Shown here: positions 6,253 to 24,476 of the stretch, one piece after another
Position numbering within the stretch: the first letter of the stretch is position 1
Layout: each line of letters starts with the position of its first letter
From: a virus
Strand: one strand, 5' to 3'
DNA length: 24,476 nt
IMG/VR virus record: IMGVR_UViG_3300044946_000125
Location: 1 to 24,476 of that record
Notes under the pieces: generated by a model
Databases searched by the model: none
What the model saw: the letters and a program-made list of their open reading frames with translations, nothing else
Told to the model about the DNA's origin: nothing
Made by a program: the position numbers and the translations under genes

Positions 6253-6614
6253 TCGAGTCCTTGGGCTTGAAGGCCGCCGCCGCGTTCTTAAAGATCCACC
6301 CGGACACCCTCGCCGAGCGCGCCCGAAAAGGGGTTATTCCCGGTGCTAAGATCGGCCGCGCGTGGGTCTTTTTGCCCCATCTCCTACAACAATACGTCGA
6401 GGGGCAATGCCGCTCTACCGTCGCAAAGCCGAGGGACCCTGGTGGATACGAATCTCGGTCGCTGGCCACAAGATTAGGAAATCTTCGGGCACGACGGATC
6501 GCGAGGCTGCAAAGGAGTTCGAGCGCGTCGAGTTCGAGCGCGCCTACCGAGAGCGAAAGCTCGGTGACCGTTCTGCAATTCCCTGGCGCGAAGCGGCCGC
6601 GCGCTGGCTCCTAG
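6249..6614 (+). CDS. xis: Excisionase-like HTH DNA-binding protein
   Basis: A 121-residue protein from ATG 6249 (ATGA overlap with the previous stop). The N-terminal about 50 residues (LGLKAAAAFLKIHPDTLAER, then ARKGVIPGAKIGRAWVFLPH) form a winged HTH of the excisionase/MerR type, which binds DNA beside the attachment site and can steer recombination towards excision. The C-terminal half from about residue 53 overlaps the integrase gene in another frame for 208 bp. It is low complexity (RSSSASSSSAPTESESS), so the folded part is only the N-terminal domain. Adjacency to int supports a recombination directionality factor; a transcription regulator is the alternative. Confidence 0.7.
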   Translation: MIESLGLKAAAAFLKIHPDTLAERARKGVIPGAKIGRAWVFLPHLLQQYVEGQCRSTVAKPRDPGGYESRSLATRLGNLRARRIARLQRSSSASSSSAPTESESSVTVLQFPGAKRPRAGS

Positions 6615-7447
6615 AGACCAGGAAGCGCACCAAGTCGAAGGATGAGTACATGCTCGCCTGGTTCGGCGGGTACCTCGACAATGAGCCCCTCTCCGGGATC
6701 GATCGCGAGACGATCGAGGATCTGCGCGAGGCGCTCCTCGAGGAGGGCTCCTCCGAGTCGAACGTCGATCGCTACATGGCGCTCCTGCGCGCGATCCTCC
6801 GTAAGGCGCGCGATGAGTGGCGCTGGCTCAACAACATCCCGAAGGTGCCGATGTACGGCAAGGACGAGCTCGAGCCGCGCTGGCTCACGCGCGTCGAGTT
6901 CGAGCGCCTGAAGCGCGAGCTCCCGCCGCACCAAAAGCTCGCCGCAGAATTCGCGGTCCTCACCGGCCTTCGCATGCGCGCCCAGCTCGGGCTCACCTGG
7001 GACCGCGTCGACCTCCGCCGCCGGCGCGCATGGGTGCCCTCCTCGAGCATGAAGGGGAAGGCGACGTTCGGCTTCCCGCTCTCGGCCGCGGCGGTCAAGG
7101 TGTTGAAGCGCGCTCGAGCCGCATCACCGGAAGGCGCGCACGTGTTTCAGTACGAGGGCGCACCGATCGATGACTGCAACACGGCGGCGTTTGAGAAGGC
7201 CGCTGCGCGCGCAGGACTCGAGGGGATCAACTGGCACACCTTCCGACACACCTTCGCCTCCTGGGCGCTGCAGAACGGTGTGACGCTGCACGAGCTCATG
7301 CAGCTCGGTGGCTGGAAGAGCTACCAGATGGTCTTGAAGTACGCCCACCTCGCGCCCGATCACCTGTCAAAAGCGGCCGAGTTGGTAGCACAAAAAGGGC
7401 ACACGGGGCGGCGGGGTGTTCCACGTGGAACGTCAAAAAAGCGTTAG
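6407..7447 (+). CDS. int: Phage tyrosine-recombinase integrase
   Basis: A 346-residue protein from ATG 6407 with GAGGGG just upstream. It is a typical phage integrase. The N-terminal arm-binding domain is about residues 1-50 (RRKAEGPWWIRISVAGHKIR), the core-binding SAM-like domain about 57-145, and the catalytic domain about 155-325. Catalytic residues seen: Arg189 in LTGLRMRAQLGL, a Lys in SSMKGKATFG (216/218), His277 and Arg280 in HTFRHTFASW, Trp303 in place of the second His (LGGWKSYQMV), and the nucleophile Tyr312 in KYAHL. It integrates the phage at a tRNA gene; the tRNA 3' fragment lies 7 bp past its stop. The last codons contain a 17-bp repeat and a parS-like palindrome. Confidence 0.96.
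   Translation: MPLYRRKAEGPWWIRISVAGHKIRKSSGTTDREAAKEFERVEFERAYRERKLGDRSAIPWREAAARWLLETRKRTKSKDEYMLAWFGGYLDNEPLSGIDRETIEDLREALLEEGSSESNVDRYMALLRAILRKARDEWRWLNNIPKVPMYGKDELEPRWLTRVEFERLKRELPPHQKLAAEFAVLTGLRMRAQLGLTWDRVDLRRRRAWVPSSSMKGKATFGFPLSAAAVKVLKRARAASPEGAHVFQYEGAPIDDCNTAAFEKAAARAGLEGINWHTFRHTFASWALQNGVTLHELMQLGGWKSYQMVLKYAHLAPDHLSKAAELVAQKGHTGRRGVPRGTSKKR
7388..7404 (+). repeat. 17-bp direct repeat, left copy (possible integrase arm site)
   Basis: GCACAAAAAGGGCACAC occurs here, within the last codons of int, and again identically at 7575-7591 on the other side of the tRNA fragment. Same-orientation copies flanking the core at about 80 and 107 bp are what integrase arm-type sites look like. 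The identity is seen directly; the binding role is inferred. Confidence 0.6.
7417..7432. promoter_or_regulatory. parS-like ParB-binding palindrome
   Basis: TGTTCCACGTGGAACG contains the perfect 14-bp palindrome GTTCCACGTGGAAC and differs at only the last base from TGTTCCACGTGGAACA, a chromosomal parS form of the TGTTNCACGTGNAACA class bound by host ParB. It lies in the last codons of int (reading V-P-R-G-T), 22 bp before the attachment core. No parA or parB gene is in the window. Function is inferred from the match alone. Confidence 0.5.
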
Positions 7448-9777: not shown

Positions 9778-10770
9778 CTAGATCTGTGGGTAGACGAGAT
9801 TGATGTTGCCGGAGATGCCCTTCGCGCCCGAGGTGGTCCAGCCTGAGTAGTTCGGGGTGCTCCCAAGACCGAAGGTGAGAACGCCCGAGGTGTTGATCGA
9901 CACCCAGCCGGCTTGACCCGCGGTGCCGTTGTCCTCGACCAAACAGGGGAGCACCACGCCCAAGGTCAAGGGCGCCAGGCCATTCGCGCCGGTGGGGAGC
10001 CCGGTCATGGTGAAAGTGTTCGCGTTCGAGGTGCCGGTGTTCGCGGACGTGATGATCGAGACGACGCCGTCCTGCAGCTTGTAGGCGTAATTGAAGACAG
10101 GCGCGGTGCCGGAGAAGCCGGTACCGGTGAGCGTCCCGGTGCCCGAGATCGGCGCTTGCCCCATGCGCAGGTACCGCCCGGTCGCTGGGCTACTCGAGGG
10201 CTCGATGGTGTTCGCGCCGTCATCTGCCGCGCTCGAGGTCGCATTCCAGTAAAAGAGCCCGCCCAGGCCGTCGCTGATCGAGACCGCGCCCTCGACCGCG
10301 ACGATGAGCGTCTGCCCGGAGGCGAGCGTGGGCACGTTCGCGGCGCGGAGTGATGCGAAGACCGAGTAGCTTTTGACGGCGTTCGCGACCAGGTCCGCAC
10401 CGAACCCTGAGGCCGGGTTCGCAAGGTTCGACTGGATGGAGCCCGGCGCCCCCGGGTCATTGATGCCGGAGATGCCGAGGATCGACCAGGTCTCGCCGAG
10501 CGTGTCGACAAAGTACGCATCGATCGTGGTGCCCGAGGCGACCCAGAAGTTCGTGAACGCACCGCCCGAGCCTGCAGGGCGGCCGGCGCTGTTCAACGTC
10601 ATCGGGTTCGGGTTCGGGCCGCCGCCGCCCGCGGTCGAGTAGGTGGGCGCCAGAATCGACACCGATCCCGACACATAGGTCGTGATCACAGCGCCGCCGG
10701 CGATGACGCCCGCGTTCGTCAGCATCTGCACGAGCGCGGAGAGAATCGTCTGGTAATAGCTAGTTGCCAT
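9778..10770 (-). CDS. Tail appendage / receptor-binding protein
   Basis: A 330-residue protein from ATG 10770, overlapping the end of the ATP-grasp gene by 11 bp. The N-terminus (SYYQTILSALVQMLTNAGVI) leads to a stretch rich in G/S/T with GPNPNPMTLNSAGRPAGSGG, which resembles the head-binding N-terminal domains of podovirus tailspikes and fibres (the P-x-N-P-x-x-L-x-x-x-G-x-P pattern). The middle and C-terminal parts are beta-rich and low in charge (SGTGTLTGTGFSGTAPVFNY), like trimeric fibre shafts. No lyase or hydrolase motif is visible. Position between the ejection protein block and lysis genes fits a host-recognition protein. Confidence 0.62.
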   Translation of the reverse strand: MATSYYQTILSALVQMLTNAGVIAGGAVITTYVSGSVSILAPTYSTAGGGGPNPNPMTLNSAGRPAGSGGAFTNFWVASGTTIDAYFVDTLGETWSILGISGINDPGAPGSIQSNLANPASGFGADLVANAVKSYSVFASLRAANVPTLASGQTLIVAVEGAVSISDGLGGLFYWNATSSAADDGANTIEPSSSPATGRYLRMGQAPISGTGTLTGTGFSGTAPVFNYAYKLQDGVVSIITSANTGTSNANTFTMTGLPTGANGLAPLTLGVVLPCLVEDNGTAGQAGWVSINTSGVLTFGLGSTPNYSGWTTSGAKGISGNINLVYPQI

Positions 10771-12070
10771 ATTTGAACTCCGTCGCGTAGCCGTGCGCCT
10801 GGAGCTCGGTGAGCTCCTTCTCGAGCTTCTCGCCGATATCGTCGCGCCATCCAAGATCCGGGACGTGGACCTGGTCGACGGCCTTGTACATGCGATCGCA
10901 GGCCTGGCGCACGGTCTTGCCCGTGCCCGTCACCACCGCAACGTAGTCACCTGCGGTCGCCCACATCTTCTTGTCGACGATCTCCTCGCCCTTCATCGCC
11001 GGGAGCTTCGCCATCTTCACCGACTGCGGGTGCACGAACTTGCGCGCCGGCGTCTCGACGGTCACGGGGATGTCGATGAGCTCCTTGGGCTCGCGCGGTT
11101 CCAACTGCAGCACCACGCCCGCGGCGATCGAGTAGTCGACCTCGAGCGTGTCCTCGCCCTCATAGGCGTTCAGCATCCACTCGACCGGGTCGCCCTTGTG
11201 AGTGGCCCACATGATGTTGGCCGCCGGCCACCCCCAGCGCATGGTGAACTCGAGCGGCCAGGCCTTGCCCTTGTCATCGATCTTGCAATTGACGTCGACA
11301 TCGCCTAAGTGCCCGAGCTTGACGAGCTCGTCCTCGAGGGGGGCGAGCACCGTCTCGCCCAGCTTCGAGGCCTTCACGTACTTCATCACCGTGCCGGCCT
11401 CGCCGCAGTTCGGGCCGCAGTTGCCCGAGAGCTGCTTTTTAAATTCGAAGTTCTCGTTGTAATCGCCGATGAAGCCCTCTTTCCCCATCCAGCGCGAGAC
11501 TCCGAACTCGGGGCCTTCGATAAAAGTCTGCAGCATCACGGGGCCCTTGGGGTTTAGCCCCAAGCGCTTCCATCGCTGCAGCCGGGCAATCATATCGGCG
11601 GGGGATTTGCCGACGTAGGAGAGGCTTTTGTCCTCTTCTGAGCCCAAAGTTTTGAATACATAGCGGCCCGGCTTCTTGCGCACGTGCGCTTCCGCCTCAT
11701 CGAGCGACTTGAAGGTCTCGTAGGCCGGCACATCGATCCCGGCGCGCTTGAAGGCCTTCATGCCGTCCTCGCGCTTGATCTCGAGTGCAGCGCTTCGCGC
11801 GCTCGGAGCAAACACTGCCACGCCTCGCTTTCGCAGGGCGTCGAGCTTCGGCAAGAATTGATCGTTCCCGGTGAGGAGCACGAGATCGGCCCAGGAGCTC
11901 GCGGAGGCGACCCAGTTCTTGATGCGCTCGAGGCCTTTGAAGCCTTCGCCGACAATCTGATTATTTTCCGGGCGGAGGAAGTAGCGCACTTTGTGCCCCG
12001 CCTTGAGACATGCCAGGGCAAAGGGCAGTCCACACCCTGCGTCCTCCATTTCCAGGAGCAGCACATTCAC
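10760..12070 (-). CDS. PurD-like ATP-grasp ligase
   Basis: A 436-residue protein from GTG 12070, overlapping the previous TGA (GTGA). The domain order is that of phosphoribosylamine-glycine ligase (PurD): an N-terminal Rossmann-like part (MNVLLLEMEDAGCG; DLVLLTGNDQ), a pre-ATP-grasp part (MKAFKRAGIDVPAYETFKSL), then the ATP-grasp core. The core shows the lysine strand RYVFKTLGS, the adenine-region glutamates QTFIEGPEFGVSRWM, a glycine-rich loop GPNCGEAGTV resembling PurD GPNTGGMG, and a metal-binding-type segment PLEFTMRWGWPAANI in place of EFNxRFGDPE. It may ligate an amino acid or nucleotide-linked acceptor rather than act in purine synthesis. Sitting in a virion operon is unusual. The fold call is good; the substrate is unknown. 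Confidence 0.72.
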   Translation of the reverse strand: MNVLLLEMEDAGCGLPFALACLKAGHKVRYFLRPENNQIVGEGFKGLERIKNWVASASSWADLVLLTGNDQFLPKLDALRKRGVAVFAPSARSAALEIKREDGMKAFKRAGIDVPAYETFKSLDEAEAHVRKKPGRYVFKTLGSEEDKSLSYVGKSPADMIARLQRWKRLGLNPKGPVMLQTFIEGPEFGVSRWMGKEGFIGDYNENFEFKKQLSGNCGPNCGEAGTVMKYVKASKLGETVLAPLEDELVKLGHLGDVDVNCKIDDKGKAWPLEFTMRWGWPAANIMWATHKGDPVEWMLNAYEGEDTLEVDYSIAAGVVLQLEPREPKELIDIPVTVETPARKFVHPQSVKMAKLPAMKGEEIVDKKMWATAGDYVAVVTGTGKTVRQACDRMYKAVDQVHVPDLGWRDDIGEKLEKELTELQAHGYATEFKYGN

Positions 12071-16016: not shown

Positions 16017-16757
16017 TTAAGGCCCCGCGTTCAAATCGGTGGGCGTGTAGTAGGTGCCCGGCGCGACCGCGCCCGGAGGCCCTGCATCGAGGCTCCCCCC
16101 ATAGTTGTAATAGGCCGCGGACGGGCCCCCGCCGCCGCCCGGGTTCGAGAGTCCCTGGAGCGCGTTGTAAGTGAGGTAGCTATTCGTCGCGCCCGAGCCC
16201 GCGCGCGTGATGCCGGCGATCTCGGAGGACTCGATGTTCGCAAGGTTCGTGCCCTGCGAGATCGTCTCGCCGGCGACGTTGGTTGCTGTCTGACCGATAT
16301 TCGCCGCGGTGCCGGCCGCGGCCGCCTGACCGATCTGCTCTTGCCCGAGTGCGTTGTTGATCGCCTGCTGATAGGTCGAGTCGCCCAACTGCGCACCGAA
16401 GCTCTCGACGCCCGCCACCTGGTTGCCCGAGAGATTCAAACCCGAGGCCGCGGCCGCGCGCTCGGCACCTTCGACGCCCTGGCCGTAAGTTGCCTGATAT
16501 CCGGGCGTGTTCTGCAGCGTCTGCTGCACCTGCTGAGGATTCGCCGAGGTGAGCGCGTTGTAGGTCTGGATCCCCGCCTGGCCCTGCTTCGTGTAGGGCG
16601 CAGCGAGCGCTTCCTGCTGCGTGAGCGCATTCTGCTGCTCGGTGACCGCGGCGTTGGTTGCGCTCTTCGTTGCATTCGCCGAGGTGTCGGCTGCATACAC
16701 CGTACCTGCGACGGTCGCGGCCGCACCGATGCCAATCGCCGTTGCTACGCCTGACAT
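16017..16757 (-). CDS. DNA ejection protein, gp7-like
   Basis: A 246-residue protein from ATG 16757 with AGGAG upstream, overlapping the end of the cupin-like gene by 13 bp. The N-terminus VATAIGIGAAATVAGTVYAA is a hydrophobic alanine/glycine segment. It is followed by an Asn/Thr/Gln-rich region with ALAAPYTKQGQAGIQTYNAL, then TPGYQATYGQGVEGAERAAA and ASGLNLSGNQ. The series APYxxxGxxAxxxxxxL, TPGYxxxxxxGxxxxxxxxAAxG, SGxxxxxxxxF is characteristic of phage gp7-like ejection/pilot proteins. It opens the gp7-gp20-gp16 block. Confidence 0.75.
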   Translation of the reverse strand: MSGVATAIGIGAAATVAGTVYAADTSANATKSATNAAVTEQQNALTQQEALAAPYTKQGQAGIQTYNALTSANPQQVQQTLQNTPGYQATYGQGVEGAERAAAASGLNLSGNQVAGVESFGAQLGDSTYQQAINNALGQEQIGQAAAAGTAANIGQTATNVAGETISQGTNLANIESSEIAGITRAGSGATNSYLTYNALQGLSNPGGGGGPSAAYYNYGGSLDAGPPGAVAPGTYYTPTDLNAGP

Positions 16758-17209
16758 AGAAGCTTCTCCTCGAGGACGCGGCCGCGCTCGATCAGCGCCT
16801 GGGCGGGTTCAAAGATATCGAGCTCGAGCGCCAGGGCGTCCTTCGACTCGGTCGGGTTGGGATGGCGCGTGTCCGCGATCACATCGGTCAAGGTGAAGGC
16901 GACCGCGTGAAAGCCGGGATCGGTGACGATGCCGGCCGGCGCATCGAAACGGCGCTTGCCCTGCGGTGCAATCAAAATCGCCGACCCCTTGACGAGGTGC
17001 ACCTCATGGCCGTGATTGTGCTTGCGGCCGAGAAAGAGCGTCGCGGCCGGGATGTGCATGCGGCGGATGTAAAAGCCCGGCTCGAAGCGGTGCTCGACCG
17101 GGCACTCGCGCTGCTCGAGCTTCGAGAACTGATAGGTGAGATACGCCACCTTCTCCGCCCAGGTCAGGCTCGAAGGCGCATCGTCCCAGGGCACGACAAT
17201 CACGTTCAC
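16745..17209 (-). CDS. Cupin-like phage protein
   Basis: A 154-residue protein from GTG 17209, overlapping the SET gene stop (GTGA). Residues 37-47 ECPVEHRFEPG, then IRRMHIPAATLFLGRKHNHG and HEVHLVKGSAILIAPQGKRR, are followed by an AGIVTDPGFHAVAFTLTD segment. These give the HxH...G and PG-x-H elements of a double-stranded beta-helix (cupin) fold. Short proteins with ECPVxHxFxPGxYxR are seen in podovirus and other phage operons. Metal binding through the His cluster is likely; catalysis is unknown. It sits between the SET protein and ejection proteins. Confidence 0.68.
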   Translation of the reverse strand: MNVIVVPWDDAPSSLTWAEKVAYLTYQFSKLEQRECPVEHRFEPGFYIRRMHIPAATLFLGRKHNHGHEVHLVKGSAILIAPQGKRRFDAPAGIVTDPGFHAVAFTLTDVIADTRHPNPTESKDALALELDIFEPAQALIERGRVLEEKLLCQA

Positions 17210-17658
17210 TTGCGCATCTCCCGAAACTTCTGAAAACACAAGATCTGCTCGAGCGAGCGGTTCAGCTTCTTGAGCTCCGCGAGCACCGGATCCGCTGCGG
17301 CGACATTGGTCGCGACCGCCTGTCGATAGTTGACCGTGATCTCATCGCCCGGCTCGAGCGCTCTTTCGGCGATCAGATAGATGTCGGGCCCGAATGCCTG
17401 CATCTTCGCGTTCGGGTCCCGCGCATGGTTGGCGTACCGCCCGGCCTGCGTGCGCATCCCCTGCAATCGCGCGGGCGCAATCAGCTGGCCGGCGGCAAAA
17501 GCGCGGGAGGCAAAGAGGCCGGTGCCCTCGATGAGTGAGGGCGCGGTGCGCCAGCCGTCCTCGGCGATCGTCACCTGGTCGGCGAGGTTCTCCGAGATCG
17601 CGCGCGCGGTCGCTTCGGTGACGCCCATCTCGGCCAGGAAGTCTTGATAGTCGCTCAT
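17206..17658 (-). CDS. SET-domain protein (putative protein-lysine methyltransferase)
   Basis: A 150-residue protein from ATG 17658 (ATGA overlap with the previous stop). It carries the ordered SET-domain hallmarks: EGTGLFASRAFAAGQLI (about 44-60, the GxG cofactor loop), RYANHARDPNAKMQA (about 74-88, the NHxxxPN motif), and ALEPGDEITVNYRQ (about 100-113, the GEEItxxY motif with the catalytic-type Tyr). This is a minimal SET core without pre/post-SET zinc domains. It would transfer a methyl group from AdoMet to a lysine of a virion or host protein. The helical ends are extra. The fold call is firm; the target is unknown. A SET enzyme inside a tail operon is uncommon. Confidence 0.85.
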   Translation of the reverse strand: MSDYQDFLAEMGVTEATARAISENLADQVTIAEDGWRTAPSLIEGTGLFASRAFAAGQLIAPARLQGMRTQAGRYANHARDPNAKMQAFGPDIYLIAERALEPGDEITVNYRQAVATNVAAADPVLAELKKLNRSLEQILCFQKFREMRK

Positions 17659-17993
17659 ACGGGTGTCCCTGCCGAATTCACCCACACGGTCGGGTTCAAG
17701 CTCTGCACCCAGATGGGGATCCCGAGCGACTCATCGAAGAACGGGTAGCCGATGAACAGGCCCGCCATCGGGCGATTCGCGGTCACATCGGCGCCGCCGA
17801 TCGTCTTCACCAGGTTGTAGTTCTGCGAGAGATAGGCGTTCCACACCGGGTGGATCACTGGCGCTGGCTTCGGTGCCACGGGCGCCGGCGCACGCCGCGT
17901 CGGATCAAAGGGCGGCGGCGTCTCGCGGATCGGTGCGAAGAAGGGCGCCGAGCTCGGCAAGGGACCTAAGAGCGGAGGCTTCGGGGCGGCCAT
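17655..17993 (-). CDS. Small virion protein with PIW...W tip motif
   Basis: A 112-residue protein from ATG 17993, whose last base is shared with the previous stop. The first half is proline rich (PKPPLLGPLPSSAPFFAPIR, then APAPVAPKPAPVIHPVWNAY). The C-terminus FFDESLGIPIWVQSLNPTVW, then VNSAGTPV, matches the LGxPIWxxxxxWVxxxG tip motif often seen at the ends of phage structural proteins. It occupies the slot after the gp10-like hub where P22 has the tail needle gp26, but it has no coiled coil and does not look like gp26. Confidence 0.55.
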   Translation of the reverse strand: MAAPKPPLLGPLPSSAPFFAPIRETPPPFDPTRRAPAPVAPKPAPVIHPVWNAYLSQNYNLVKTIGGADVTANRPMAGLFIGYPFFDESLGIPIWVQSLNPTVWVNSAGTPV

Positions 17994-19486
17994 CAGAAGG
18001 TCTCCGGCTTGCCCTTGCGCCGGATCGCCCCGTCGGTGATCACGAACTTCACCGGGTCGGTCATGCGAAAGCGAAAGGTGAAGACCCGCGACATGCCGAA
18101 GCGACGCACATTGACGCGCGTAACGAACTGCCCTTGCGCACCCAACGGGATGAGCCTCGCCTGGAGCCAGGTGCGCCCATTGTCCTTCGAGCACTCGACC
18201 GAGATCACCGGCGCCTGGCCCTGCACCGGGCTCGAGGTGTTGCCCGAAAGCCCGACGCCCGTCTCCATGTCGAGATAGAGCTGCGGGATCCGGAAGCGGT
18301 TGTAGCCGCGGGTCTGATGCTTGGTCACCACCTCGCGCAGGATCGGCACGGTGTTATCCGCGTAGGTGTTGTCGTCCATCCGATAGACGAAGCCGTTCAC
18401 ATAGTCGGTGAGGAGCGTGTCGCCGTTGTAGTAGCACGAGAGGTTCGCTGCGTGGCGCAAAAAGCCCCCGGTCGAGAGACCGGTCTGCGTCTCACCCCAG
18501 ATCCCGGTCGAACAGTCGTACAGGAACGAGCGATTCATCGTCGGGAAGGTGAGCTGCACGAAGGCGTGCACATCACGCTGATACGAGAGCATGGTCGCAT
18601 CGGCGTAGGTGAAGCCGGGCTGGTTCATGATGTAGTCGATCTCCTGCGAGATCGGCGTCACCGTGTAGCCATCGATGCGGCACACCCGGCGGGTCCCCGC
18701 GGCGCTTTGGGCGAGGAAGAAGAGCGCGTTGTCGGCCTGCGTGCGTGCGAACACCGCAGCCAAACCCCACTTGATCGGAGACGATTGAATGAGTTGGAAG
18801 GGTTGCGCCGGCGGCGGTGTGCCGACCGGTTGCCAGAACTCCAGGTGCTGCTGCGCGAAGAGGATTAGGTTGCCCATCAAGTTATCGACGGCCACCATGA
18901 TGTCGGGGTAGGCCGCGGCGGTCGCGATCGAGAGCGCATAGCCCGTCGTCGCATCGTTGATGTTGGAGGCCGCGAATTCGCCCGTGTTCGGCACTTCGGT
19001 GACGAAGTAGCCGCCGACATTCGTGCAGGTCTTAGCGCCCGGCGTGAACCAGGCGGCGCCGGCGCCCAGCTGCGTGAGTGTCTGCGCCTGCGTGTTGAAC
19101 ACCCACCCCGAGGAGCCGTCGACCAGGAAGATCTGCGAGACGGACGGATTCGCCGCGAGCGAGCAGAGGCCCTGGATCGTGCCGATGAAGCCTGAGAAGT
19201 TGACGCCTGCGGGATTGCCCACGACCGCGGGCGGTGAGAGCGATTGGAACTCGTTCGACACCACCGCATAGAGCGTTGAGTTGGTGGGACCTAAGATCGC
19301 GCGCACGGGTGTGTTCTGAGAGGAGCCGACCGAGAACACCTTCACGAGCCCGGGCGTCCCATAGACCACGACCTTCGCCTTGTCGCCGTCCGCGCGCTGC
19401 TCGTAATAGCAGTTGACGCGCCTCTGGCGGGTCACCACCGCGCTCTTCGCGTACACCCCAGCACCAAATAGTGGAACAGGTTGCAT
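17993..19486 (-). CDS. P22 gp10-like tail hub / packaged-DNA stabilisation protein
   Basis: A 497-residue protein from ATG 19486, close to the 472 residues of P22 gp10. It begins with a strand region containing TRQRRVNCYYEQRADGDKAK and VVYGTPGLVKVFSV, similar in layout to the family start (few residues, then the PVN-type motif, then a PG segment). It continues as a long series of beta strands: GFIGTIQGLCS, SQIFLVDGSSGWVFN, GNLILFAQQHLEFWQPVGTP. C-terminal segments ECSKDNGRTWLQARLIPLG and RFGMSRVFTFRFRMTDPVKF resemble the hub family end. In P22 gp10 hexamers close the portal channel below gp4. Placement after the gp4-like gene supports the call. Confidence 0.75.
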   Translation of the reverse strand: MQPVPLFGAGVYAKSAVVTRQRRVNCYYEQRADGDKAKVVVYGTPGLVKVFSVGSSQNTPVRAILGPTNSTLYAVVSNEFQSLSPPAVVGNPAGVNFSGFIGTIQGLCSLAANPSVSQIFLVDGSSGWVFNTQAQTLTQLGAGAAWFTPGAKTCTNVGGYFVTEVPNTGEFAASNINDATTGYALSIATAAAYPDIMVAVDNLMGNLILFAQQHLEFWQPVGTPPPAQPFQLIQSSPIKWGLAAVFARTQADNALFFLAQSAAGTRRVCRIDGYTVTPISQEIDYIMNQPGFTYADATMLSYQRDVHAFVQLTFPTMNRSFLYDCSTGIWGETQTGLSTGGFLRHAANLSCYYNGDTLLTDYVNGFVYRMDDNTYADNTVPILREVVTKHQTRGYNRFRIPQLYLDMETGVGLSGNTSSPVQGQAPVISVECSKDNGRTWLQARLIPLGAQGQFVTRVNVRRFGMSRVFTFRFRMTDPVKFVITDGAIRRKGKPETF

Positions 19487-19489
19487 AGC

Positions 19490-20545
19490 CTAGTAGTTCT
19501 GATCGTCGTCTTCGGGTTGAAAGTACTGCGCGGTCACCTGGGGGTTTCCCTCGCGCGCCTGCGAGGTCGCGAGCAAATAGTTGCTCTTCCGATCCTCCGT
19601 CCAGTCGCCATCGAACATCGAGCAGACCGGGAGCGCGAGACTCCACACCAGGTGCCAGAACCACTCCTGCGGGTACTCGGGCGCATCGAGCGGATTCACG
19701 AAGTCCATCGACTCGCGCAAGAAGACCGCGTGGATGCCCTTGGTCACGTCCTGGGCGCCGGCGCAATCGGTGTAAAGGTGCCCTTGATTGCCGATCATGC
19801 GCGCCTCGTAGTACCAGGCGGTCGGGTCGGCGACGTTGGTCGGCATGGTCTTGGTCGGCAGCGCCTCGTACTGCTCGAGCGTCATCTCGGTGAGCGGTGT
19901 GTCGTTGAAGGTGATATCGCGCAGAAGCGCGGTGAGCACCTTCATCGGCCGCTGCGCAGGCGTCGTGTAGTTCCACACATAGTTGGTGGAGTTGGCATAG
20001 CTGCCTGAGGGCAGGCCCGTCGCCATCGTGACCTGGCCCGTGAGCGTGTTCACCGAGGAGACGGTCGACCAGAAGATATCGGTCACGCCCGAGGCGAGCG
20101 TCACCTGCACACCGATGTAGTCGTTCACATTGACCGCGGTCGTGTTGCCGATGCCGACCTGGAGCACGTTGCCGCCGGCGTTGACCGCGGTGACGAGCTG
20201 GTTCTGCTGATAGAGGTTCGGGTACGGCAAGCCCGTCACCCCGCCCGCCCAGTTGTCGGTCGAAGTGCCGCCCAGCTGATAGACGTACTTCGAGGCGCCC
20301 AAGAAGAGATGCCCGCGGTAGCGCTGCCACATCTTGAAGCCGGGGGCCTTGTCCAACTGCCCCGCGAGCTGCTTCGTGATCATGTTCAAGACCGCCGCGC
20401 AGTCGACGATCTCCTGTGCGGTCGGCACTTCGGAAGGCTCCAGGATCCCGTTCACCAGCATGGCGGCGCGAATGATCTGGTCGCGATACACCGAGAAGGT
20501 GAACGAGCCCGAGGGAACAAACGGCAGCGGGTAGGTGATGGACAC
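19490..20545 (-). CDS. P22 gp4-like head-tail adaptor, with inserted beta domain
   Basis: A 351-residue protein from GTG 20545, 2 nt after the previous stop, with GAGG upstream. Residues about 18-65 (YRDQIIRAAMLVNGILEPSE, then QEIVDCAAVLNMITKQLAGQ) form the helical start of the gp4/adaptor family. The C-terminal part has RPMKVLTALLRDITFNDTPL, then MTLEQYEALPTKTMP, and LDAPEYPQEWFWHLVWSLAL, which are typical adaptor motifs. Between them (about 85-200) lies a beta-rich stretch making it twice the length of P22 gp4 (166 residues). It would sit under the portal. Order before the gp10-like gene supports the role. Confidence 0.65.
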   Translation of the reverse strand: MSITYPLPFVPSGSFTFSVYRDQIIRAAMLVNGILEPSEVPTAQEIVDCAAVLNMITKQLAGQLDKAPGFKMWQRYRGHLFLGASKYVYQLGGTSTDNWAGGVTGLPYPNLYQQNQLVTAVNAGGNVLQVGIGNTTAVNVNDYIGVQVTLASGVTDIFWSTVSSVNTLTGQVTMATGLPSGSYANSTNYVWNYTTPAQRPMKVLTALLRDITFNDTPLTEMTLEQYEALPTKTMPTNVADPTAWYYEARMIGNQGHLYTDCAGAQDVTKGIHAVFLRESMDFVNPLDAPEYPQEWFWHLVWSLALPVCSMFDGDWTEDRKSNYLLATSQAREGNPQVTAQYFQPEDDDQNY

Positions 20546-20547
20546 TG

Positions 20548-22317
20548 CTAAGCCTCGATCGCGCTCTTCTCGATCACTTCGGCGGGATTTCGGATGTGCT
20601 CAGGGAGTGTCGCGCGCACCCGCATGAGCTCCTCGGGCGAGAGCTGCACGAGGCCGGGCGGCGGGAGACCATCACGCTTCGCGTACTCCTCGAGACGCCA
20701 CTGCACGACGTGCCAGAGCACCTTGTAGGCATCCTGCGGGCCGATGTCCCACTGACACTGCGACACCCCGGCACCGTTCCTTTTGCCCCCGATGCGCTTG
20801 TAGAGCTCCTCCGTCTCCGCGGCCGCCGGCGCCTCGGTGCAGCGATCCCAGCCGTAGTGCATCTGGTGACAGGCCGGCGCCTCATCGTTCCCGCGGCCCT
20901 TGCACACGGTCCCCACGCTCGCGAGCGAGTGGGTGTTGACCCAGTGCTTGGTCAAGTTCTCCTGGGATGAGTGCGACAGGAAGATCACCTTCGGCATCTC
21001 CTCCATCGCCATGGCGTTGAGCACCCCGGTCTCGGGCCCCACGATCACATCGCACTCTTGAGCCAAGGCGAGTGAGTCGCGGATCGAGTACTTGCCCGAT
21101 CGGCAGTGCGCGCGCGGGGTCTCCTCCCAGCCCTTCTCGAGGATCACGCCGTCCTCACCGCCCACGAACACCACCGACACCTCGGGGAAGTCGACCAGGA
21201 GCCCGGACACGGCGTTGTCGACGAAGGGCCAGATCTTGTGCACCGATGAGCCGGTGAGCGCCCAGAGCACGAGGAAGGAGCCGAGCGCCTTCTTCTCGAG
21301 CTTCGCCCACTTTTTCTCGGCCTCGGTTGCGTAGAAGTGGATCCGGTGCGGCGCATCCGGCACGCCCGCGATCAAGTGCTGGCGATCGACGTAGTTCCAA
21401 TTGAGGATCTCGTGCCGCGCGGCCGGTGAGTAGGTATCGACGGGCCGGCCCGCCATCGAGAGAAGGCCGCCCTCGACGGACTCGGAGAGGTTCACCCACT
21501 TGTCGAACTTTTTCTTGTGGTGCTCCCAGAAGGAGCCGAGCGCCTGGTCGGGGACCTGGCCGCGCCCTTGGATGTAGAACTCATCAATGTGCGGGTCGTG
21601 CTCGATCGAGTCATACCCCGGGCCTTCGGCGCAGTAGAGCGTGATGTGATAGCCCTGCTCTTTGAGCGCGGCGAATACCGAGGCCGCCTGCATCGAGTCG
21701 CCGATCGCGCCGTAGCGCACGACGCCGCAGGTCTTGCCGATCGGCCGCGGGCGATCGTGGTGGAAGAAGCGCGGGGTCTCGAGCGTCTTCTTGAACACGA
21801 AGAAGAGCGAGTACTCGATGCCCTCGCTCCGTTTCTGATAGTCCATCAGATCGAAGGGGACCTTGGCCGCGTGCATGACCTTCATGAGGCCGTTGAAGGT
21901 CACGTTCCACTTGTGATCGGGGTTCGCGCCCTCCTCGCCCACCTTCGGATACTCATCCGCATCGGGCAGATAGAGCACCATGTAGCCGCCGACCTTGACC
22001 ACCCGCCACCACTCGCGCAGGCACTTCACGAGCTTGTCCTCCTCGATGTGCTCTAGCAAATGGGATGAAAAAACGAAGTCCATCTGCTCATCGGCCAGGA
22101 TCGAAAGGTCTGCCGCGTGCTGCACGAAGAGATCGGGCCGCACCATCTGCTGGCCGAAGAGCAGCGCATCGACGTTGTTGTCGACGGTGATGAAGTGCGG
22201 GAAGGTGCGCGAGTTCCCGGCGCCGATGTCGAGGCCCTTGCCCCGCGTCCACTTGACGATCTCCCAGGAGATCTTCGCCGATTCGTTGCCCTGTGGGCCG
22301 TCTTTTGTCCAAGTCAC
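20548..22317 (-). CDS. Methyltransferase-glycosyltransferase (GT9-like) fusion
   Basis: A 589-residue two-enzyme protein from GTG 22317, behind AAGAGGGGA. Residues about 25-180 are a class I AdoMet methyltransferase: motif I GLDIGAGN (28-35), an acidic VDN after strand 2 (45-47), SSHLLEHI (84-91) and WRVVKVGGYMVLYLPD (104-119). Residues about 195-470 resemble heptosyltransferase family GT9: VVRYGAIGDSMQAASVFAAL (199-218) as the acceptor-side glycine loop and VGPETGVLNAMAMEEMPKVI (426-445) as the sugar-nucleotide site. A Cys-rich tail follows (CKGRGNDEAPACH, WDRC, CQWDIGPQDAY). It might modify host LPS or a virion component. An intergenic hairpin precedes it, and it is framed by virion genes. 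Both folds are clear; acceptor and donor are unknown. Confidence 0.82.
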   Translation of the reverse strand: MTWTKDGPQGNESAKISWEIVKWTRGKGLDIGAGNSRTFPHFITVDNNVDALLFGQQMVRPDLFVQHAADLSILADEQMDFVFSSHLLEHIEEDKLVKCLREWWRVVKVGGYMVLYLPDADEYPKVGEEGANPDHKWNVTFNGLMKVMHAAKVPFDLMDYQKRSEGIEYSLFFVFKKTLETPRFFHHDRPRPIGKTCGVVRYGAIGDSMQAASVFAALKEQGYHITLYCAEGPGYDSIEHDPHIDEFYIQGRGQVPDQALGSFWEHHKKKFDKWVNLSESVEGGLLSMAGRPVDTYSPAARHEILNWNYVDRQHLIAGVPDAPHRIHFYATEAEKKWAKLEKKALGSFLVLWALTGSSVHKIWPFVDNAVSGLLVDFPEVSVVFVGGEDGVILEKGWEETPRAHCRSGKYSIRDSLALAQECDVIVGPETGVLNAMAMEEMPKVIFLSHSSQENLTKHWVNTHSLASVGTVCKGRGNDEAPACHQMHYGWDRCTEAPAAAETEELYKRIGGKRNGAGVSQCQWDIGPQDAYKVLWHVVQWRLEEYAKRDGLPPPGLVQLSPEELMRVRATLPEHIRNPAEVIEKSAIEA

Positions 22318-22346
22318 TGCTGTTCCCCTCTTACGTTAGATGCGCA

Positions 22347-22370
22347 GACGCCCGCAGCGAGGCGGGCGTC
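22347..22370. terminator. Intergenic GC-rich hairpin before the fusion enzyme gene
   Basis: GACGCCCGC (22347-22355) and GCGGGCGTC (22362-22370) form a perfect 9-bp stem with a 6-nt AGCGAG loop. It lies in the gap between the coiled-coil gene and the methyltransferase-GT9 gene. No T-run follows on the minus strand, so full termination is unlikely. Partial termination or mRNA protection is possible. Confidence 0.5.
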
Positions 22371-22392
22371 CGTTTCGTCAAGGCCTCTCAGC

Positions 22393-22842
22393 CTATTTCG
22401 GTTTTTGAGCTCCACGGGCCGGATCCTTCCCAGGCGGGTGGAGCTGCGCGGAGGTGGGCCCGCTGTACACCTCGGGCGGCTCCGGATCGGGCGGCGTGGG
22501 CGCCGGCGTCTCGGCCTTCTTCTCGAGCTGCGCCATCAGGCGCTCGAGGAGCTCGTTGGTGCGCTTCTGGCTGTCCTCGAGGTCCTTGATCCGATTCTGC
22601 AGGACCTGGTTCTCCTCGAGGAGCTCGTCCGCGTGCTTGGGCAGCGGCACACCGAACTTATAGCCGACCGGGGCGTGATCGCCCTTGTAATGCATCTCGC
22701 GCCCTTCGTACTCCTGGATGAACTTCACTTCGACGAAGCCATCCGAGTAGACGACGCCGTGTGGCTTCGTCGGGTTGAAGAGCCGCACGCCGTCATCGGT
22801 GAAGCGGTCGCGCTCGATCTTGATCTTTTTGACTGCTGACAT
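22393..22842 (-). CDS. Coiled-coil virion-region protein
   Basis: A 149-residue protein from ATG 22842 with AAGAGGGGAT upstream. The N-terminal half (KKIKIERDRFTDDGVRLFNP through VYSDGFVEVKFIQEYEGREM) is charged and strand-like. Residues about 72-110 (ADELLEENQVLQNRIKDLED, then SQKRTNELLERLMAQLEKKA) form a strong coiled coil. The C-terminus is proline rich. No family recognised; it could be a scaffold or minor virion protein. It precedes the hairpin and the fusion enzyme. Confidence 0.6.
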   Translation of the reverse strand: MSAVKKIKIERDRFTDDGVRLFNPTKPHGVVYSDGFVEVKFIQEYEGREMHYKGDHAPVGYKFGVPLPKHADELLEENQVLQNRIKDLEDSQKRTNELLERLMAQLEKKAETPAPTPPDPEPPEVYSGPTSAQLHPPGKDPARGAQKPK

Positions 22843-22854
22843 TTCGATCCCCTC

Positions 22855-23292
22855 TTAGTCCCAGAGACAGTTGGCGCTGCCGAGCGTCGCGGATCCCGAG
22901 ATCTCAACGACGAGTGCGCCGTTATACCGAATACCCGGCCAGCCGATGGTGGATGAGCCCGTGATGAAAGCGCCGGCGGCGCTCGCGGTGCCGTTCGCGA
23001 TCAGGTTCGTGGTGGTGGCGGTGTTGGTGCCGAGGCCTGTGGGCGGGATCACATCGAAGACGTTGACCACCTGCGCAGCGCCACCCGTGCCCGTGCCCGT
23101 GGTGGTGTTGGTCCCGAGGCCATTGAAACTCACCCCGTAGAAGACCGATGGATACTGCCCCGCCGGCGTCGGCGCCATGTAGCCCTGCGCGTTCACCGCC
23201 GGCCCCGGATTCACCGTGAAGGTCGCCGTGTTTGACTGCGTGCCCGCCTGGAGCGGCGTGTATTTGCAGTTGTCCTGGTAGAGGTTCGGCAC
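22855..23292 (-). CDS. Putative virion protein, Thr/Gly/Asn-rich
   Basis: A 145-residue protein; the start is GTG 23292, 3 nt after the previous stop. Composition is low in charge and rich in Thr, Gly, Asn and Ala (GLGTNTTTGTGTGGAAQVVN; GLGTNTATTTNLIANGTASA), with two GLGTNT repeats about 28 residues apart. This is typical of beta-rich structural proteins such as head decoration or fibre components. It ends ISGSATLGSANCLWD. No family assigned; its place in the virion operon supports a structural role. Confidence 0.55.
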   Translation of the reverse strand: MPNLYQDNCKYTPLQAGTQSNTATFTVNPGPAVNAQGYMAPTPAGQYPSVFYGVSFNGLGTNTTTGTGTGGAAQVVNVFDVIPPTGLGTNTATTTNLIANGTASAAGAFITGSSTIGWPGIRYNGALVVEISGSATLGSANCLWD

Positions 23293-23295
23293 GGG

Positions 23296-23721
23296 TCAGA
23301 GCCGATCGAGCATGTTGTTGCGCTCGGCGAAGCCCACCTCACCGTCGACGTTCATCTCATCGTAGAAGGCGTCCTGGTGCGCCTTCGTGTATTCATCGTC
23401 GGTGGCGCGCATCGGCAGGCGCTTGAAGCCCTTCGCGACCGCCTCGCTGTTCCAATCTCGAGACACATCGGACTCACCGCCCATCGTGGTCGCAAACTTG
23501 CGCTGGTCGGTCTCCTCCTGGTCCTCCATGTCCATGCCCGGCGGGAGCGAGTTGAACATCGCCGCGTTGGTCGAGGGGTCGGGCTTGACGCTCGCGTTCT
23601 CCTTGCCCGGCATGCCCTTCTTCGTGCGCGCGCTCGAGTCACTCTTCCAGCCCGAGTGCGCATCGTCGTTACCCTGCTGCGGGTAATCGACTTGGAACTT
23701 CTCCTGTAAGATGCCCGGCAT
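23296..23721 (-). CDS. Virion-region protein, paralogue of the 23731-24165 product
   Basis: A 141-residue polar protein from ATG 23721. Residues 54-77 (MFNSLPPGMDMEDQEETDQR) match a segment of the upstream gene product (MLQSLPPGMDIEDQENADIR) at nearly every position, followed in both by a Met/Gly/Asp-Trp stretch. Outside this the two differ. Rich in Asp, Glu, Lys and Met, with no signal peptide or membrane segment. Function unknown; a minor virion or assembly protein is possible. No clear ribosome site precedes the start. Confidence 0.58.
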   Translation of the reverse strand: MPGILQEKFQVDYPQQGNDDAHSGWKSDSSARTKKGMPGKENASVKPDPSTNAAMFNSLPPGMDMEDQEETDQRKFATTMGGESDVSRDWNSEAVAKGFKRLPMRATDDEYTKAHQDAFYDEMNVDGEVGFAERNNMLDRL

Positions 23722-23730
23722 GGCGGCGGG

Positions 23731-24165
23731 CTACTTGTTGGTCTCGCCGGGGCGGCCGCGATCCGCACCGCTCGTCCACCCATCGCCCGGGTAGCCCATG
23801 TCGGTGATCGTCTTGAAGGGCATCTTCCGGATGTCCGCGTTCTCCTGATCCTCGATGTCCATGCCCGGCGGCAAAGACTGGAGCATCACGTTCGCGCCGC
23901 CTTCGACCAGGCCCTTCTTGGTGAGGTACCCGTCATCGCGGATACCGACCATCTCGTTGCCCTCGATGTGCGCGGAGTTCGGGAGGAAGTTCACGTCCGC
24001 GTAGCGATCGCCCTTCATCTCGTGGCGCTTGCCGCCGCGCGCATTCGCGCTCTTCACGATCGCTTCCTTCGAGGGGCTCTTGCCGCCCGAGGTCTTCGTG
24101 GAAAGACCGTCCGGGGCCACCTGCGGTGACTCGTAGACGCCCTTTTGCTTCATGCCTTTTGCCAT
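23731..24165 (-). CDS. Virion-region protein, paralogue of the 23296-23721 product
   Basis: A 144-residue basic and polar protein from ATG 24165 with AAGGAGAG upstream. The N-terminal half is lysine/glycine rich (MAKGMKQKGVYESPQ; SANARGGKRHEMKGDRYADV). The middle holds FLPNSAHIEGNEMVGIRDDG and then the shared motif SLPPGMDIEDQENADIRKMP, also in the next gene. It may be a product of tandem duplication. No known family. It lies just downstream of a GC-rich hairpin. Confidence 0.58.
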   Translation of the reverse strand: MAKGMKQKGVYESPQVAPDGLSTKTSGGKSPSKEAIVKSANARGGKRHEMKGDRYADVNFLPNSAHIEGNEMVGIRDDGYLTKKGLVEGGANVMLQSLPPGMDIEDQENADIRKMPFKTITDMGYPGDGWTSGADRGRPGETNK

Positions 24166-24195
24166 CTGCGCTCTCCTTGGAGCTCGTGAAACGAT

Positions 24196-24219
24196 GAGGG
24201 CGGTGGCAGTCCCGCCCTC
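24196..24219. terminator. Intergenic GC-rich hairpin
   Basis: GAGGGCGG (24196-24203) and CCGCCCTC (24212-24219) form a perfect 8-bp stem with an 8-nt loop, between the right-edge gene and the 24165 gene. No T-run follows on the minus strand. It may attenuate transcription or fix an mRNA end after a highly expressed upstream head gene. Confidence 0.45.
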
Positions 24220-24225
24220 GAGGGA

Positions 24226-24476
24226 TCAGGCCGCCACAGCAGCAAGCGGCTGGATCTGGTAGTCGAGCTCGACCGTCTCGGTCGCCGTCGCATCGGTCCC
24301 GGAGACCACGTAGAAGTACGAGCCCTGTGGGATCACGATGCCACCCAGGCCCGCGGTGCCGGTGTTCGTGTTCAACTGCGCCTGGCTATAGGCGCCCACC
24401 TGGTTGGTGAACGTGCCCGAGGCGCCGAACTGCCCGCCGAGCACATAAGGCCCGTAGGTCGTGGTCGACAATGACA
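24226..24476 (-). CDS. Putative head/virion protein, 5' end beyond window
   Basis: About 83 visible codons, open to the right edge. Only a TTG at 24471 is available as an internal start, so the true start may lie outside. The sequence (TTYGPYVLGGQFGASGTFTN, then QVGAYSQAQLNTNTGTAGLG, then VIPQGSYFYVVSGTDATATE) is low in charge and beta-prone with many Gly, Thr and Ser, like small phage head decoration or virion proteins. It ends LDYQIQPLAAVAA and is followed by a hairpin, which would fit a highly expressed gene. Family unknown. Confidence 0.5.
   Translation of the reverse strand, partial: SLSTTTYGPYVLGGQFGASGTFTNQVGAYSQAQLNTNTGTAGLGGIVIPQGSYFYVVSGTDATATETVELDYQIQPLAAVAA

Follow-up and report, generated by a model that had tools for sequence, protein, structure and literature searches.

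Few cases of phage virion glycosylation are known. The capsid of mycobacteriophage Che8 is reported to be glycosylated (as cited in PMC11256854), and the phage-encoded glycosyltransferases of mycobacteriophages are linked to glycans that the major capsid protein bears. In Chlorovirus PBCV-1, the protein A064R combines two rhamnosyltransferases and a methyltransferase in one polypeptide and serves the capsid glycan (PMC9614988). Phage-encoded heptose genes are found in cyanophages; in Synechococcus phage S-T4 (record positions 72809-85549) a type 11 methyltransferase, an ADP-heptose synthase, a phosphoheptose isomerase and fucosyltransferases are clustered. Two further groups of enzymes are relevant here. 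The GT9 LPS heptosyltransferases (WaaC, WaaF; PF01075; 3TOV, 1PSW, 2H1H) combine a GT-B fold and a C-terminal cysteine cluster with a GxxGD motif that carries the catalytic Asp, a conserved Lys and a (D/E)TG motif. In the TibC/Aah group (BAHT), the GT-B enzyme TibC uses ADP-D,D-heptose to heptosylate protein, and its four cysteines, which hold one ferric ion, are required for assembly and activity (PMC4358343). Our literature search for a phage heptosyltransferase or a methyltransferase-GT9 fusion gave nothing specific.

The window, by which we mean the whole stretch of 24,476 nucleotides that was analysed and that makes up one entire virus record, encodes such a fusion on its minus strand. 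The gene and its surroundings are laid out as follows.

20548..22317, minus strand: methyltransferase-GT9 fusion, whole gene; GTG start at 22317, stop at 20548-20550, 589 aa in one open frame; recurs in relatives
21778..22317, minus strand: class I AdoMet methyltransferase domain, residues about 1-180 (Pfam Methyltransf_11, E 1.6e-9)
Within this domain: methyltransferase motif residues, namely motif I LDIGAG (D30, G32, G34), D46, H86 and E89; G32, G34, D46, H86 and E89 are invariant in 54 sequences
20908..21738, minus strand: GT9-like GT-B glycosyltransferase domain, residues about 194-470 (hhalign, Foldseek, NCBIfam TIGR02193 in relatives, residue counts)
20755..20904, minus strand: four-cysteine cluster C472, C483, C493, C521 with H484 and H487 (alignment to cellular GT9 enzymes, iron finger of TibC)
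20551..20754, minus strand: C-terminal helices and tail, residues 522-589 (AlphaFold2 confidence lower at the end; shorter in distant relatives by alignment)
22325..22331, minus strand: probable ribosome-binding site AGAGGGG (GGGG-type), read from the sequence
22345..22372, minus strand: 11-bp GC hairpin just upstream of the fusion gene (U-run absent here; energy unexceptional against shuffles, z -1.17)
22393..22842, minus strand: small virion-operon protein of 149 aa, upstream neighbour (counterparts in the relatives L002 and L003)
19490..20545, minus strand: gp4-like or head-completion-type gene, downstream neighbour (phrog_12985; synteny)
17993..19486, minus strand: head closure Hc3 gene, second downstream neighbour (phrog_578, E 4.8e-75)

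The phage protein shares all the listed features of the GT9 LPS heptosyltransferases, but it is only about 16% identical to them, carries an N-terminal methyltransferase, has Glu at position 429 where they have Asp, stays under the PF01075 cut-off and sits in a phage virion operon. With TibC/Aah, whose heptosyltransferases act on protein, it has the GT-B fold in common, and four conserved cysteines stand at the place that matches the finger. The phage protein lacks the N-terminal beta-barrel of that group, having the methyltransferase in its place, its cysteines are spaced differently, and the fold match to TibC is weaker than that to WaaF. TIGR04414 (BAHT) was absent from the NCBIfam matches of the window protein up to E 1; with this profile unmatched and the beta-barrel missing, membership in TibC/Aah was rejected. 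A064R is similar in that sugar transfer, together here with a predicted sugar O-methylation, is joined in one viral polypeptide. However, its glycosyltransferases belong to other families, the sugar is rhamnose, the host is eukaryotic and the domain order is reversed, so that we regard the likeness as analogy, not homology. The cyanophage clusters resemble our phages in their heptose genes and, in S-T4, in the accompanying methyltransferase; they are found in large T4-like phages together with fucosyltransferases, and the fusion was not detected there. The mycobacteriophages differ in their mycobacterial hosts and in the location of the genes: those of Maravista, a phage related to Che8, are found close to the genome end and not in the capsid operon.

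Identity of the two domains

The profile score of the N-terminal half (PF08241, 38.7 bits against a cut-off of 21.2), the GxG of motif I and the acidic ribose-binding residue D46 identify a class I AdoMet methyltransferase. The second half is more divergent. Pfam gave no match to PF01075 (GT9) in the window protein, and the close relative L004 scored 14.4 bits, below the cut-off of 22. Because the gathering score is missed, we call the protein a divergent GT9-like relative and not a Pfam-recognised member; Pfam as sole evidence would have missed the domain. Profile-profile alignment with hhalign against 12 cellular GT9 enzymes gave a probability of 99.4% and an E value of 2e-21, and 14 of 54 relatives matched the NCBIfam heptosyltransferase I family, the best at 3.6e-7. 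An AlphaFold2 model built from 54 sequences reached a mean pLDDT of 90.6 and a pTM of 0.84 (a model from three close relatives only, with pLDDT 34, was set aside). The top PDB matches found with Foldseek are GT9 enzymes, namely 3TOV (2.1e-13), WaaF 1PSW (7.2e-13), WaaC (1.2e-8) and TibC (4.5e-7), and the N-terminal part matched many class I methyltransferases. The residues D207, K361 and E429, which hhalign aligns with GT9 residues, are invariant in 54/54 sequences. D207 is the counterpart of the GT9-type catalytic Asp (TibC Asp-110, PMC4358343) and K361 that of the phosphate-binding Lys, while at E429 a Glu replaces the Asp found in the TG motif of other GT9 enzymes. From profiles and model we take the second half to be a divergent enzyme of the GT9 type. 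The class of its donor is well supported, and heptose is the likely donor itself.

The sequence-only reading had proposed just such a joining of a methyltransferase with a GT9-type enzyme and had suggested structure prediction of both domains. Pfam, NCBIfam, profile-profile and fold searches all agree with it, the predicted structure matches both enzyme classes, and the catalytic residues are present. That reading had also seen a Cys-rich tail as an added, possible metal site. Indeed, the cysteines are real and a metal site is probable: C472, C483 and C493 are found in 54/54 sequences, and C521 in 52/54, with a gap in the other two. The four stand at the finger position of TibC, as do the cysteines of further GT9 enzymes. 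A CxxC..C..C cluster that aligns with the phage cysteines is common to cellular GT9 enzymes (e.g. L191, L192 and L195), and the tail is therefore a feature of the family and not an extra. By alignment and by analogy with TibC, the cluster, with H484 and H487, would probably serve as the finger that binds Fe or Zn in this family.

Comparison of the window gene with those of L004 and L005 gave dN values of 0.13-0.17 against dS values of 0.54-0.73, indicating purifying selection on both domains and on the tail. Both domains are in a single frame at nearly all loci that were inspected closely, on many independent contigs. This recurrence, together with selection on all parts, shows that the fusion is neither a chance event nor an assembly join.

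Operon position and distribution among relatives

Searching viral contigs with a growing query alignment gave 2, then 26 and then at least 417 relatives, a part of which may share the methyltransferase only; the best 80 were taken, and weak matches that cover just the methyltransferase part (L023-L029 and most from L130 onward) were excluded. Among 50,697 phage records, four different queries returned no full-length or GT9-domain match, only matches at the level of the methyltransferase. Patterns drawn from three relatives gave no match in bacterial genomes, and the 54-sequence alignment revealed prophages. The bacteria whose prophages or phage contigs encode the fusion include Paraburkholderia, Aromatoleum, Pseudothauera and Polaromonas, with Paraburkholderia sp. 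C35, P. rhynchosiae and Aromatoleum anaerobium as named prophage carriers.

Wherever the flanks are long enough and the neighbours recognisable, the gene occupies the same slot, downstream of the major capsid gene and followed on the same strand by the gp4-like and Hc3 genes; at some of the most distant loci, L019-L021, L120-L122 and L124, the neighbours were not recognised by the profiles used. The label gp4-like for 19490..20545 comes from its position and from comparison with the head completion adaptor of Vibrio phage 1.232.O. For an independent count we sampled relatives by capsid homology, which gave 80 contigs, 61 of them informative. A GT9 gene fills the slot in 60/61: 39 fused to the methyltransferase, 4 split, and 17 with GT9 alone, the methyltransferase not being detected. 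Only in L285 (3175-5075) is the slot empty with both neighbours in place, showing that the gene can be dispensed with; it is also absent from cultured phages of the same capsid family such as PTXU04 and Vibrio phage 1.232.O. The fixed slot in 60 of the 61 contigs makes the gene a core late gene of the lineage and not recent cargo. Its location in the virion operon, which had been recognised from the letters, is thereby confirmed with its capsid, gp4-like and Hc3 neighbours on the same strand, while the idea of inserted cargo does not hold across this large phage lineage.

The hairpin that had been noticed beside the gene is real. In L011 and L044 it is terminator-like and has a U-run. A canonical terminator was rejected for the window phage, in which the U-run is absent. 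It is possible that the hairpin acts as a partial terminator between the capsid genes and the enzyme gene, and it may in this way hold the level of the enzyme under that of the capsid proteins.

In five relatives (L022, L261, L307, L321 and L322) the two domains are encoded by separate genes that stay close together; in some of the five, unrelated genes intervene. In L022 an endonuclease-like gene of the GIY-YIG/NUMOD3 type (10513-11193) lies between the methyltransferase and the GT9 part and splits the fusion, from which it follows that the domains can work as separate chains. A similar gene, recognised by a weak match, stands at the domain junction in L261 (3915-4565). In L110 (3343-6058) a complete fusion precedes another copy that is split into a methyltransferase frame and the start of a GT9 frame.

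Heptose genes in relatives and the likely acceptor

A point that the sequence-only reading overlooked is that relatives of this phage carry genes for heptose biosynthesis. At least one ADP-heptose biosynthesis homologue is encoded by 13/18 near-complete relatives, which are not independent samples: the HldE-type adenylyltransferase by 12, the HldE-type kinase by 10, GmhA by 7 and GmhB by 3 (one weak). In a targeted search the heptose kinase was found in 10/19 larger relatives, and the HldD epimerase in 0/19. A single contig, G009/L234, has the full set, with GmhA, HldE kinase, HldE adenylyltransferase and GmhB in a row. As background, the 50,697 phage records contain 11 GmhA-like and 35 kinase-like sequences, several of them cellular sequence or from cyanophages. 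The best NCBIfam matches of the homologues are heptose enzymes with scores below the curated cut-offs, and the exact sugar could thus differ. Given that HldD is absent from the phages, the expected product of their genes is ADP-D,D-heptose, the donor of TibC. In some relatives, a group 1 glycosyltransferase and cupin genes are found beside the heptose kinase (L214:9068-10213, L214:8760-9080 and L222:6433-6843), which suggests a longer or different glycan there.

The window itself carries no such donor genes. G001, the near-complete contig of the closest viral relative (fusion identity 80-81%), aligns with the window in circularly permuted order. The part of G001 that remains unaligned, at about 18.4-34.1 kb, holds the MCP, portal and terminase genes and the heptose genes (29.7-32.8 kb). 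The window is a fragment that lacks the corresponding region, so the absence of heptose genes from it is uninformative. The prophages in bacterial genomes whose upstream flank could be read have no heptose genes there and would rely on ADP-heptose of the host.

With moderate confidence, we propose that the fusion protein is a late cytosolic enzyme by which a virion protein receives a heptose from an ADP donor, probably in methylated form. It would be a soluble two-domain enzyme made alongside the virion proteins. Before the particle is assembled, or while it is, the GT9 domain would take heptose or a similar sugar from an ADP-activated donor and place it on a phage virion protein; the methyltransferase domain most likely caps the transferred sugar by O-methylation. 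This donor would come from the Gram-negative host, and many relatives may boost its supply with phage GmhA, HldE kinase, HldE adenylyltransferase and GmhB. The benefit may be that the particle surface is shielded or altered. Since GT9 occurs without a detected methyltransferase in 17/61 capsid relatives, methylation is not essential. We favour a virion acceptor because of the place in the virion operon and the near-universality in the capsid lineage. Of the two proposals made from the sequence, decoration of the virion fits this context better than a change of LPS.

What counts against a virion acceptor is that the nearest characterised enzymes, by sequence and by fold, are LPS heptosyltransferases and 3TOV, with TibC ranking lower. 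Because these enzymes act on LPS, we keep as the main, though unlikely, alternative that the phage changes the host lipopolysaccharide late in infection. A methylated heptose on the inner core would then change or cap the receptor, so that progeny are kept off debris and infected cells, or other phages are excluded. GT9 enzymes normally build the LPS core, the GT9-type sequence matches are LPS heptosyltransferases I, II and III and RfaQ, the folds are those of WaaF and WaaC, and each named carrier in culture (Paraburkholderia, Aromatoleum, Pseudothauera) is Gram-negative. Lysogenic-conversion genes, however, usually lie outside the late virion operon and have their own control. The fusion gene lies inside that operon, and no sigma-70-like promoter was found in 16500-24476. 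Moreover, hardly any sampled member of the capsid lineage lacks it, a conservation stronger than a host-specific receptor change would lead one to expect, and a phage heptose pathway seems needless if the host already makes heptose for its LPS.

The five relatives with separately encoded domains and the 17 contigs with GT9 alone would also suit an arrangement in which the methyltransferase acts on a protein or another small molecule, the GT9 part glycosylates, and the two are joined for co-expression only. We consider this improbable, as the fusion is the commonest arrangement (39/60), the separated partners stay near each other, and a TylF-type sugar O-methyltransferase (Pfam E 7.8e-16) directly upstream of the split fusion in L261 (2834-3391) points to methylation of a sugar. 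Slightly more improbable still is that the sugar, which may then be one other than heptose, goes to phage DNA bases, to a small molecule or to a lipid carrier. The sub-cut-off scores of the heptose-gene homologues leave room for it, as do the group 1 glycosyltransferase and cupins of some relatives, with which a different or longer glycan could be made. Yet homologues of four enzymes from a single pathway occur together, heptose enzymes are the families that they match best, and we know of no GT9 enzyme that modifies DNA.

Returning to heptosylation of the virion, one may extend the proposal, more tentatively, to the whole group: a widespread tailed-phage lineage may use a core enzyme of the operon to heptosylate and O-methylate the proteins of its own virions, some members having a complete GmhA-HldE-GmhB route to ADP-D,D-heptose. 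If this is true, it would be a phage-encoded system of protein heptosylation that reaches from sugar synthesis through capping. It would account for the heptose biosynthesis genes in such phages, give a testable route to the sugar coat of a large environmental phage group and provide soluble protein heptosyltransferases for glycan engineering. A GT9 enzyme that is near-universal in a capsid operon is unmatched in any of the 50,697 records of the phage collection searched, and the prophages in named bacterial genomes make testing practical.

Further genes of the window

A tyrosine integrase is encoded on the plus strand at 6362-7447 (phrog_1, E 7.9e-60). This gene makes a temperate phage probable, which agrees with the prophages among its relatives. 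In the late region, on the minus strand, an ATP-grasp protein at 10760-12070 shows weak GARS_A and GARS_C similarity and is without a PHROG match; it possibly ligates an amino acid or a peptide. Finally, also on the minus strand and within the virion operon, a SET-domain protein (17206-17685; Pfam SET, E 1.7e-9) overlaps a protein with short-tail-fibre/adhesin PHROG matches (16745-17239). In L002 and L003 the SET and adhesin-type parts form one frame of 287-332 aa, and the SET-domain protein could be a lysine methyltransferase for virion proteins.
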